DNA of 56,534 bases, from NCBI GenBank assembly GCA_026393985.1, contig JAPKZB010000077.1:17566-74099 (forward strand), written 5' to 3'. Origin of the DNA: Acidobacteriota bacterium. GTDB lineage: Bacteria > Acidobacteriota > Terriglobia > Bryobacterales > Bryobacteraceae. Both the position numbers and the translations under genes were made by a program. Numbering within the stretch: position 1 is the stretch's first letter; each line of letters starts with the position of its first letter. This document shows, one piece after another, positions 21,686 to 25,430 of the stretch. The notes beneath the pieces were generated by a model, which saw nothing but the letters and a program-made list of their open reading frames with translations, was not told the DNA's origin and ran no database searches.

Positions 21686-22363
21686 CTATGGGTTGATTTC
21701 CCGCAGAATTTGCCGCACCGCCGCCCCCGGATCCGCCGCCCGCGTCACCTGCCGCCCCACCACCAGATAGCTCGCCCCCGCCGCCATCGCCGCCATCGGT
21801 GTCGCCACCCGCTTCTGATCCCCCACGTCCGCCCCCGCGCTCCGTACCCCCGGCGTCACTAGGATCTTCCCCGGCCCCACCCGCGCCCGCAACGCCCCCA
21901 CCTCGAGCGGCGAACAAACCAACCCGTCCACCCCCGCCTCCATCGCATTCCGCACCCGCAGCGCAAACAGCTCTTCGAGCGAACACGTGTACCCCATCGC
22001 CGGCAGATCGCTCTCGGCAATACTCGTCAACACCGTCACCCCCAGCAACCGCAGCCCCGCATCCCCCCGGCCCTCCACAGCCGCCCGCATCACCCCCGGC
22101 TCGGCATGCACCGTCAACAAACTCACCCCACTCCGCGCCACCTGCCGCACCGCCCGCTTCACCGTCTCCCCAATATCGTGAAACTTCAGGTCGAGGAACA
22201 CCTTCTTCCCCCGGCCTAGCAGCTCATCCACAAACGCCATCCCGGCTACGGTATACAACTCCAGGCCCACCTTGTAAAAGGTGATCTCCTCCGCCGTAGC
22301 GTCCACGATTCCCCGCGCTTCGGCGGCCGTTTCACAGTCCAGTGCAATAATGATCGGATTCAT
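21686..22363 (-). CDS. pyrF: orotidine 5'-phosphate decarboxylase
   Basis: Converts OMP to UMP, the last step of de novo pyrimidine synthesis. 225 residues, normal for the group I enzyme. The catalytic signature is FLDLKFHDIGETV with Lys60 and Asp63 in the D-x-K-x-x-D array. Phosphate-binding loops are TPGVRS near residue 180 and VVGRQVTRA near 205. It overlaps selD by four bases (ATGA), an unusual partner; coupling to selenophosphate synthesis looks positional rather than metabolic. An intrinsic terminator follows. Confidence 0.96.
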   Translation of the reverse strand: MNPIIIALDCETAAEARGIVDATAEEITFYKVGLELYTVAGMAFVDELLGRGKKVFLDLKFHDIGETVKRAVRQVARSGVSLLTVHAEPGVMRAAVEGRGDAGLRLLGVTVLTSIAESDLPAMGYTCSLEELFALRVRNAMEAGVDGLVCSPLEVGALRARVGPGKILVTPGVRSAGADVGDQKRVATPMAAMAAGASYLVVGRQVTRAADPGAAVRQILREINP

Positions 22364-23379
22364 TCGACTTCTAATAGCGTATCCCGCCGCGCCACCACCC
22401 GGCCCATCCGGTACGCCCCCGCGTACAACCCCTCCATCCGCGCCGCCTCCGCCTCCGGCATCGCCAGCAGCAGCCCCCCCGAAGTCTGCGGGTCATACAG
22501 CACGTCTCCCGCCGACCCCGTCACCTGACACTCCACAAACTCCCGGTTACTCTTGAGCCCCCCCGGCACCGCCCCCGCCGCCGCATACTCCGCCACCCCC
22601 GGCAGCAACTGCAGCCGCCCGCTCTCAATCACCAGCGTCACCCCCGCCCCGCACCCAGCTGACGCCGCCGCCATCTCCCGCGCATGCCCCAGCAACCCGA
22701 AGCCCGTCACGTCCGTGCAGGCATGCACCTCGCACTGCCGCATCGCCGCGCAAGCCGCCTGGTTCAACGTCACCATCGACTCAATCGACGCCGCCACATC
22801 CGCCTCCCGCGCCAAACCCTTCTTGAGCGCCGTCGACACAATCCCCGTCCCCAGCCGCTTGGTCAACACCAGCACATCGCCCACCCGCGCCCCGCCGTTG
22901 GCCAGCACCCGCGCCGGATGCACCGTCCCGGTCACCGCGTAGCCAAACTTCGGCTCGGCGTCCGCAATCGAATGCCCGCCAATCACCGAACAGGCGGCCT
23001 CGATCATCTTCTCCGCCCCACCGCGCAGCACCGCGCGCAGGTCGTCCATCTCCCCGTCCCGCGGCCACGCCAGAATGGACAGCGCCGTCACCGGCACACC
23101 CCCCATCGCCCACACATCGCTCAATGAATTCGCCGCCGCAATCTGCCCAAACGTGTACGGATCATCCACAATCGGCGTAAAGAAATCCACCGTCTGCACC
23201 AGCGCACACTCCGGCGTCAGCTCAAAGACCCCGGCGTCATCCGACGTCTCAAAGCCAATCAGCACCCGTGGATCAAACTGTCGCGGTAGCCCCGCCAGCG
23301 CCTGGTCCAAAACCTTTGGACTCAATTTGCTCGCTCAACCAGCCGCTTTCACATGCGCTGTCAACTTTTTCAACGACAC
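22360..23379 (-). CDS. selD: selenophosphate synthetase, apparently a selenoprotein (in-frame UGA)
   Basis: Makes selenophosphate from selenide and ATP for selenocysteine and selenouridine synthesis. The uninterrupted frame begins only at TTG 23325 (LSPKVLDQAL), which would lack the active site. Reading upstream through TGA 23335-23337 restores it: GTG at 23379, then KAAG-U-ASK-LSPKVL, aligning with the E. coli GAGCGCKISPKVL block so that the UGA falls on catalytic Cys17 and Lys18 on catalytic Lys20. The total is 339 residues, normal for SelD. Other motifs: ETSDDAGVF, FGQIAAANSLSDVWAMGG, VIGGHSIADAEPKFGYAVTG, DVTGFGLLGHAREMA and the DPQTSGGLL end. A hairpin starts 13 bases after the UGA. It follows the GT39 gene by 5 bases and overlaps pyrF. 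selA, selB and tRNA-Sec are not in the window. Confidence 0.88.
23305..23321 (-). promoter_or_regulatory. candidate bacterial SECIS hairpin in selD
   Basis: On the selD strand a 7-bp perfect stem, GTCCAAA / TTTGGAC, closes a three-base loop GGT. The first loop G lies 20 bases after the UGA codon (23335-23337). Known bacterial SECIS elements are short hairpins with a G among the first loop bases at about 16-37 bases from the UGA, so both shape and spacing fit. SelB binding is inferred. Confidence 0.65.
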
Positions 23380-23384
23380 TGTCT

Positions 23385-25430
23385 CTAGTCTACGATGCAG
23401 CGCGCCCCGGTCTTCCGGCAGAACGACAACGCCGAATCATCCGGCCGCCGGATCGTAATCCCCCGCGCATCGATCTTTTTCTCCACGTACAGCCGCGCCA
23501 GGTCCTTGGCGAGCCAGTGCTCCAGCACCACCGGGTCGATCTCTCCGTTCCGCCGCTCGAACAGCGGCCGCTCATACCCATCCTGCGACACCGGCCCAAA
23601 CCGGAACTCCATCGACGCCCAGTGGCCATAGTGTGGATCGAGCACCGCATCCTGCAGCGCCCACTCCCGCAGCGTCCAGCCCGGAACCGACGGATGCGGC
23701 AGCGGCTTACCCACGGCATCAAACAGCATCTGCCGCGGCCGCCGCGTCAGGTCCACCCCATAGAAATTCGCGAAGTCGAGCGGCGCCGGAGCCGTCACCT
23801 CCACGGTGCCCCCGCCCCCCTCCAAATACCGCCACAGCCTCTCCCATGCCTGCAACCCCGCATGCCCCGACCCTGCCGCCCGATCCGCCGTCCCCAACCG
23901 GTCAAAGAACCCCGGCCCCCGCTCCCCCACCGCTTCGAGCCGCGCCTCCACCACCCGGTCCACCGCCGGATCCCAATCTATCTCCTTCCGCGTCGCGCTC
24001 CGCGCCACCACCTTCCCGCCCCTCACAAACACGAGATTCCAGTACCAGATCCCCTTCCCCGCCCCCCAGAACGGCCCCGGATACGCAATCTCGTTCGGAT
24101 CAAACCCAATCGTCTCCCCCGCCTCCCAATCCCGCACGTCCCGCGCCCCCACCCACACCAGATTCGGCTCCCCCTCCACCGGCGCCACCCACTCCCCCTC
24201 GGTCGGCCGCAGCGCCGCCAGAAACAGCAACCGCCCCGCCCCCCGCCCGCTGCTCACCCGCAATTGCAGCCCCTTCGCCGCCTTCACCTCCGCCGGCACC
24301 GCCACCGCCCCCGGCATCTCCCAGCACTCCCCCAGCGCCTTCCCCGCGTAGTAATGCACCCCATACCGCAAGCTCCGCGGAATCCCGTTCGCACAGCTAT
24401 CCGGACCCACCTGCCGCGCCAACTCCCGTCCCGTCAACTTCCCGTCCCGCGCCGGCAGATATCCCAGCTTCGCCCCCGCCACCACCGCCAGCATCACCCC
24501 CGCCGCCCCCGCCAAATACCGCGGCCCCGGCACCCGCATCACCATCACCGCCGCCGGCAGCAGCGGCATCAGATACCCCGGCAGCTTATTCCTCGAAACA
24601 CTAAAGAACACAAACCCAAACAAGAGCCACGCCGCATAAAACGTCCGCGTCTTCCACTCCCCCCGCCACAGCAGCGGCGTCCACGGCAGCAGCAGGCCAA
24701 TCATCATCGGCCCGTAAAACCAGAACGGCTGTACATGCTGCAGGTCCCCACTCGCAAACCGGCTGAAATGGTGCTCAATAAAAAACTCGTTGATAAACGC
24801 CCACCCCTGCGCCCGCGTCACCAGCACATACCACGGCGCCGCCACCACGAGCGAAGCCACCACCACCTTCCACCACTCCCGCCACCGCTCCCGCGCAAAC
24901 CACCCCACCGGCGCCGCCAACACCACCGGCACCAAACCCTTGGCCAGCATCGCCGCCCCAAAGCACGCCCCCACCCACCACGCCCCCCGCCCCGTCTCCA
25001 CCCACCGCAGCGCCAGCACCATCCCGGCCGAAAAACAAACCGCCAGCGGCACATCCGTCACCGCGATGTTCGAGTAGCCAATCCAACCCGCGCACGTTGC
25101 CAGCATCGCCGCCCGCCGCCAACTCCCCACCATCCACCCGAACCAGATCACAAACCCCGCGCTCAGCAGCCCCAGCGGCACCCGTACCGCCGCCTCCGGC
25201 CCCAGGCCCAGCTTGAACCCCACCGCCCCCATCCAATACAGCAGCGACGGCTTCTCAAGCCACGGCCGCCCATCAAGCACTGGCGTCACCCAGTCCCCGC
25301 TCCGCGCCATCTCCCGGGCAATCGAAGCATACCGCGGCTCATCCGGACCAAACAGCCCAAACGCACCCGGAAACGCCGGAAACAACAGCACCAAAGCCGC
25401 CAAAAGCGCAGCCACCCGTAGATATCGCAC
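23385..25430 (-). CDS. GT39/ArnT-like membrane glycosyltransferase with unusual C-terminal extension
   Basis: 681 residues from GTG 25430; no in-frame ATG precedes it. The first ~340 residues are a polytopic GT-C enzyme: an N-terminal helix, then the luminal loop GLFGPDEPRYASIAREM with the conserved catalytic-type Asp-Glu pair, WLEKPSLLYWMGAVGF, NIAVTDVPLAVCFS and further hydrophobic helices up to about 340. Such proteins move a sugar from a polyprenyl-phosphate donor on the periplasmic side. A soluble part follows: a short luminal domain to about 375, then ~300 residues rich in Trp, Arg and Glu with no family I recognise. It ends 5 bases before the proposed selD start. Confidence 0.82.
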   Translation of the reverse strand: MRYLRVAALLAALVLLFPAFPGAFGLFGPDEPRYASIAREMARSGDWVTPVLDGRPWLEKPSLLYWMGAVGFKLGLGPEAAVRVPLGLLSAGFVIWFGWMVGSWRRAAMLATCAGWIGYSNIAVTDVPLAVCFSAGMVLALRWVETGRGAWWVGACFGAAMLAKGLVPVVLAAPVGWFARERWREWWKVVVASLVVAAPWYVLVTRAQGWAFINEFFIEHHFSRFASGDLQHVQPFWFYGPMMIGLLLPWTPLLWRGEWKTRTFYAAWLLFGFVFFSVSRNKLPGYLMPLLPAAVMVMRVPGPRYLAGAAGVMLAVVAGAKLGYLPARDGKLTGRELARQVGPDSCANGIPRSLRYGVHYYAGKALGECWEMPGAVAVPAEVKAAKGLQLRVSSGRGAGRLLFLAALRPTEGEWVAPVEGEPNLVWVGARDVRDWEAGETIGFDPNEIAYPGPFWGAGKGIWYWNLVFVRGGKVVARSATRKEIDWDPAVDRVVEARLEAVGERGPGFFDRLGTADRAAGSGHAGLQAWERLWRYLEGGGGTVEVTAPAPLDFANFYGVDLTRRPRQMLFDAVGKPLPHPSVPGWTLREWALQDAVLDPHYGHWASMEFRFGPVSQDGYERPLFERRNGEIDPVVLEHWLAKDLARLYVEKKIDARGITIRRPDDSALSFCRKTGARCIVD

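Follow-up and report, generated by a model that had tools for sequence, protein, structure and literature searches.

The question raised by this locus is whether the selD gene on the reverse strand of the window (the whole stretch of 56,534 nucleotides that was analysed) encodes a selenophosphate synthetase that is a selenoprotein in its own right. When the in-frame TGA at 23337-23335 is read through, positions 22360-23379 of the reverse strand give a SelD (selenide water dikinase, or selenophosphate synthetase) of 339 residues, with selenocysteine (Sec) at residue 15 and the N-terminus VSLKKLTAHVKAAG-U-ASKLSPKVL. A reading made from the sequence only had claimed that the open frame begins past the active site, and the mechanical ORF indeed starts at TTG 23325, 18 codons past GTG 23379, so that a standard gene call makes the protein 18 residues too short and deprives it of its active site, as that reading had anticipated. 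The matter concerns annotation more widely, as about a hundred of the relatives read carry the same in-frame TGA.

The whole protein scored 358.1 bits against TIGR00476 (cut-off 125), as a member of the SelD family should. Its best solved relative was 3u0o (E 3.9e-69, aligned residues 5-312), the SelD of E. coli, in which the Cys and Lys of the active site line up with residue 15 (the TGA) and residue 18 (Lys, codon AAA at 23326-23328, reverse strand) of the window protein. The active-site pattern of SelD, a Cys or Sec with a Lys three residues on, is thus found as U15 and K18, where the earlier reading had placed it; these residues are the equivalents of Cys17 and Lys20 in the E. coli numbering of the catalytic residues. 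The start at GTG 23379, also proposed before, was compared with the same codon place in 16 genes of the same genus (the window's included), of which eight have GTG and eight ATG (L010-L013, L017, L018, L065 and L070); because eight congeneric genes have ATG at exactly that codon, this start is supported. Upstream of selD a 681-residue ORF ends at 23385, showing no Pfam match at E 0.001, and at its other end selD overlaps by four bases (ATGA, 22360-22363) with pyrF (PF00215, orotidine 5'-phosphate decarboxylase), which is not known to adjoin selD elsewhere.

The codon at the active site was then read in homologues. SelD matches at E 1e-30 or better were found in 103 of 121 genomes, the window's own included, giving 105 matches, and the 87 of them that were read had TGA in 75 cases, TGC in 11 and TGT in one. 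The other 18 were left out, three for stopping short of the site and 15 as long open frames (749-832 residues) of a related family (f3) with no inner stop; these resemble the fusions of NADH dehydrogenase with SelD that the available part of PMC4561486 describes, and the one such frame that was read (in genome G084) has Cys at the site. A family-wide search at E 1e-80 found SelD in 189 of 237 genomes, and 40 sequences were added to the first set, namely 14 without an inner stop among the matches listed and 26 with TGA. The resulting 127 homologues have TGA in 101 cases, TGC in 22 and TGT in four, a set which is not a random sample and in which the Cys genes are at least those counted among the matches listed. 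A sense codon other than Cys or Sec in close relatives, named beforehand as evidence against a selenoprotein, was found in none of these 127, and the TGA at 23335-23337 (reverse strand) stands in the catalytic Cys17 place, in frame with the SelD ORF, its UGA aligned with the catalytic Cys of homologues as is typical of bacterial selenoproteins. The homologues with TGA come from several families, with the seven residues before the TGA largely conserved, and a named set from GTDB contigs that overlaps the first set gave TGA in 44 and TGC in four of the 48 loci read (the set holds 51 loci, three of which stop short of the site).

The presence of the machinery for Sec was also studied. The sequence-only reading had pointed to the absence of selA, selB or a tRNA-Sec with a UCA anticodon as what would speak against it, and all three were found in the own genome: tRNA-Sec on G000:C1 with 70.1 bits and anticodon TCA according to ARAGORN (UCA in the RNA), SelA on contig C52 with 456.5 bits (cut-off 267.9) and SelB on contig C34 with 359.7 bits (cut-off 242.25), each on a contig other than that of selD (C88). 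The genome thus holds selA, selB, selC and selD, the full set that a bacterial selenoprotein calls for. Since five of 14 control genomes pass the Rfam cut-off for tRNA-Sec, this cut-off alone is not telling, and it is the score together with the anticodon that decides. Among the 121 genomes, 109 were above the cut-off for tRNA-Sec, 106 for SelA and 101 for SelB. The four genes lie on four contigs in the window's genome, versus a single row in a relative of the same class, where tRNA-Sec, a Cys-type selD (L117), selA and selB follow each other within less than 5 kb (G110:C258:13544-18182).

The same genome encodes on contig C56 a formate dehydrogenase alpha subunit (FdhA, 1353.2 bits) with a single inner TGA, after which a hairpin is predicted, and the idea that the Sec trait is kept for SelD only was rejected for this genome on that account. 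The use of selenophosphate for 2-selenouridine was likewise rejected, as none of the 121 genomes, the own one included, has a SelU match with an E-value of 1e-20 or less, so that selenophosphate most likely serves Sec here; the available text of PMC1794560 reports the selenouridine trait as absent from the Acidobacteria sequenced at the time.

Downstream of the UGA, the reverse strand can form a hairpin at 23305-23321, GTCCAAA-GGT-TTTGGAC, with a 5' arm at 23321-23315, a GGT loop at 23314-23312 and a 3' arm at 23311-23305, which would be the upper stem-loop of a bacterial SECIS (bSECIS). The hairpin of 7 bp with a GGT loop that had been described before is present, but the distance of 20 bases given for it holds for the beginning of the loop, and the stem begins after 13 nt. 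With these dimensions it is a putative bSECIS that fits the model constraints in the accessible part of PMC13188914. By folding alone it is unremarkable (z -1.46, with 20 of 200 shuffles folding as well), in such a way that folding energy was dropped as a sole judge for lack of significance and a comparative test on synonymous codons decided; it is this comparative evidence, and not isolated folding, that makes the hairpin more than chance. In the first set, the outer six pairs were complete in 64 of the 75 Sec genes versus none of the 12 Cys genes. When codons were redrawn 1000 times from the synonymous usage of each gene, the Sec genes had a mean of 5.64 pairs out of six versus 3.01 in the null (sd 0.10, maximum of the draws 3.28), and the Cys genes a mean of 3.25 versus 2.80 (sd 0.27); for the window's gene alone, the full six pairs appeared in 1.8% of the draws. 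In the larger set the complete stem was found in 90 of 101 Sec genes versus 2 of 26 Cys genes, supporting that the element is conserved in Sec genes beyond the needs of the protein. The stem has rare codons at fixed places: AGT stands in 58 of the 75 sequences and CCA in 66, while the two account for 4.3% of the serine codons and 7.0% of the proline codons, respectively, of these genes. Stems changed on both sides were found in Sec genes, as GCCCAAC/GTTGGGC (L087) and CGCCAGG/CCTGGCG (L090).

In this register, 11 of the 75 Sec genes break one or more of the six outer pairs and may use another hairpin. Three UGA-type genes of one family (L113, L114 and L115) form only one or two of the outer pairs and lack the common hairpin, and other hairpins are predicted for them in the same 60 nt. 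The complete stem was also seen in two Cys-type selD genes (L215:1-1481 and L217:1-1484), apparently recent changes from Sec to Cys, which resemble the SECIS-like remnants that Cys genes can retain according to the portion of PMC1794560 consulted.

Two other explanations of the TGA were weighed against these data. Near-cognate reading of UGA is known. The codon could thus be read through independently of SelB with Trp, Cys or another amino acid, and read-through of UGA without Sec has been described for insect SPS1 (Mariotti et al., PMC4561486, available part), but the genome holds the genes for the Sec machinery and a second, classical UGA gene, and the bSECIS is as a rule lost where the codon is that for Cys, so that we regard this explanation as very improbable. 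That selD is decayed or truly truncated at its N-terminus, with the TGA as a sequencing error or an ordinary stop codon and TTG 23325, which a gene caller would choose, as its start, is hardly credible either, as TGA is shared by 101 of 127 homologues from several families, the seven residues before it are largely conserved, the hairpin after it is conserved, and a protein from 23325 would be deprived of its catalytic residue.

The reading of selD as a selenoprotein gene starts from four observations, which are the conservation of the UGA, the machinery genes, the conservation of the hairpin and the second UGA gene, and judging from these the gene almost certainly encodes a functional selenophosphate synthetase that contains Sec. 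By analogy with the known pathway, from which real Sec insertion, the activity of the enzyme and its self-feeding loop are inferred, a complex of SelB, GTP and Sec-tRNA(Sec) would bind the hairpin after the UGA at 23337-23335, and Sec would be inserted at the catalytic position of SelD. The enzyme would then make selenophosphate, which SelA would use to convert Ser-tRNA(Sec) to Sec-tRNA(Sec), and because of this use SelD would feed the synthesis of both formate dehydrogenase and SelD itself.

In order to know how often Sec and Cys have been exchanged, trees of SelD were built. A first tree, made without the N-terminus from 86 of the first 87 proteins (the fragment L118 was dropped) and with some long branches outside the window's family, requires nine changes of the Cys state, at least six of them on well-supported branches, and places one Cys gene (L070, from genome G003) within the window's own genus. 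A tree of 101 sequences of the window's family plus one outgroup sequence requires 14 changes, at least seven on well-supported branches. Bootstrap support had yet to stabilise fully for each of the trees, which give no direction of the exchange. The residue two before the site (codon at 23341-23343 of the reverse strand, Ala in the window) accompanies the exchange: in the window's family, 22 of the 23 Cys sequences have Gly there (the exception being L067) and all 78 Sec sequences have Ala, and among all 127 sequences Gly is found in 22 of the 26 with Cys and Ala in 99 of the 101 with Sec. The family tree offers seven independent pairs on supported branches, which changed in the same way in a mean of 6.8 cases and in the other way in none (median p 0.0156, range to 0.0312), a value reached only after the addition of the 40 sequences, picked to include the listed Cys ones; the earlier test on 86 sequences had given about 3 versus 0 of six pairs and was not significant (p 0.25). 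SelD has exchanged Sec and Cys no fewer than seven times in this family, nearly always along with Ala/Gly at the residue two places ahead of the site.

Both changes could have been carried together by recombination of a short stretch at the 5' end of selD, but L070 has the same AGC serine codon as the rest of its genus and L215 and L217 retain the stem, all of which argues for changes in place. Changes from Sec to Cys are known for SelD and FdhA (PMC1794560 and PMC13188914, parts available). The exchange does not simply follow the loss of the Sec trait, because machinery and a UGA-containing FdhA persist in Cys-type genomes: among the 12 of the first set, all have a tRNA-Sec match of at least 63 bits, 10 are above the cut-off for SelA and 11 for SelB (G047 and G057 are without SelA, and G057 also without SelB), and in eight (G003, G025, G031, G047, G051, G057, G067 and G102) FdhA still has its UGA. 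The window's family is a natural series of replicates of Sec/Cys exchange in one enzyme, and as the machinery is retained in most of the Cys-type genomes of the first set, matched pairs can address why an enzyme keeps Sec over Cys.

A second signal was found on the 5' side of the UGA. The Gly codon right before it (23338-23340, reverse strand) is GGT in the window and in 94 of the 101 Sec genes, versus 15.0 expected from the same genes, and at the same place GGT was found in 4 of 26 Cys genes. In FdhA of the same relatives, for which 41 of 53 matches were read, the own gene included (loci L171 and L175-L214), U precedes the TGA in 37 of 41 cases versus 5.5 expected, and it comes through the codons CTT, GTT, ATT and ACT, so that the conservation tracks the base and not the amino acid. 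These SelD and FdhA sequences are related and not independent trials, and the argument is that a rare synonymous base persists over many families and in two genes. A general effect of codon pairs was rejected, as the wobble T before TGC, TGT or TGG was found in 75 of 465 cases in Sec-type SelD (63.9 expected), in 24 of 123 in Cys-type SelD (19.4 expected) and in 198 of 1077 in FdhA (196.4 expected), and so was an ordinary terminator context, the base before the terminal TGA of 76 Sec-type SelD genes being A in 57, T in 9, C in 8 and G in 2. That the U is universal in bacteria was rejected too: in E. coli K-12, fdnG, fdoG and fdhF all have GTC-TGA (U in 0 of 3), and FdhA sequences reached via a Syntrophobacteraceae genome (31 read, 30 of 50 matches plus one more, two having Cys codons) have U before the TGA in 6 of 29 cases, versus 7.8 expected. 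Nine TGA-type SelD loci of the named set without an acidobacterium in their titles, which can be wrong (L154, L155, L157, L160, L161, L163, L164, L166 and L167), have GGT in six cases and GGC in three, and the rule may reach beyond Acidobacteriota in SelD without being strict there.

How the U might act is a matter of speculation: it could form a U-G wobble pair in the P site and thereby give SelB an advantage over release factor 2, or it could take part in a contact with the SECIS complex. In the first case the wobble pair would be U3-G34, located in the P site of a ribosome that has the UGA in its A site. We lean slightly towards the joint proposal that Sec recoding in this clade depends on a 5' U outside the known SECIS, and that SelD swaps Sec and Cys through a fixed step between Ala-Gly-Sec and Gly-Gly-Cys, in either direction. 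If it is true, a 5' U is kept in two unrelated selenoproteins of this class of Acidobacteriota, unlike in E. coli and in the relatives reached via Syntrophobacteraceae, and the Ala-Gly-Sec/Gly-Gly-Cys step would show what is required for a Cys enzyme to stand in for one with Sec. The conserved U itself hints at a 5' signal that may take part in bacterial Sec insertion. Both the U that precedes the UGA and the coupling with Ala/Gly may be new, with no priority claimed, as a limited search of open-licence literature found no mention of them in the available parts of PMC1794560, PMC4561486, PMC13188914, PMC12013277, PMC8659212 and PMC4513850.

We compared the window's gene with known systems, whose sources were available in part. 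SelD with Sec is a long-described family (PMC1794560, PMC4561486), with 38 members in 2006 (PMC1794560), and makes up 19% of the SelD genes of a reference set, always with Sec at the same position (PMC4561486); for Acidobacteria, four selenoproteins in three families have been counted (PMC1794560), and three selenoprotein genes in one acidobacterium (PMC12013277). The window's selD is of this already known kind, sharing with the bacterial Sec-containing SelD/SPS (PMC1794560, PMC4561486) the enzyme family, the position of Sec and the UGA followed by a bacterial SECIS, and differing from them in nothing in principle. Its hairpin agrees with the bSECIS model (PMC13188914) in its 3-nt loop starting with GG, its 7-bp stem and a loop 20 nt past the UGA, whereas the stem sequence is unlike that of the E. 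coli fdhF hairpin, and at the active site Sec-Ala-Ser-Lys stands in the window's SelD versus Cys-Gly-Cys-Lys in 3u0o.
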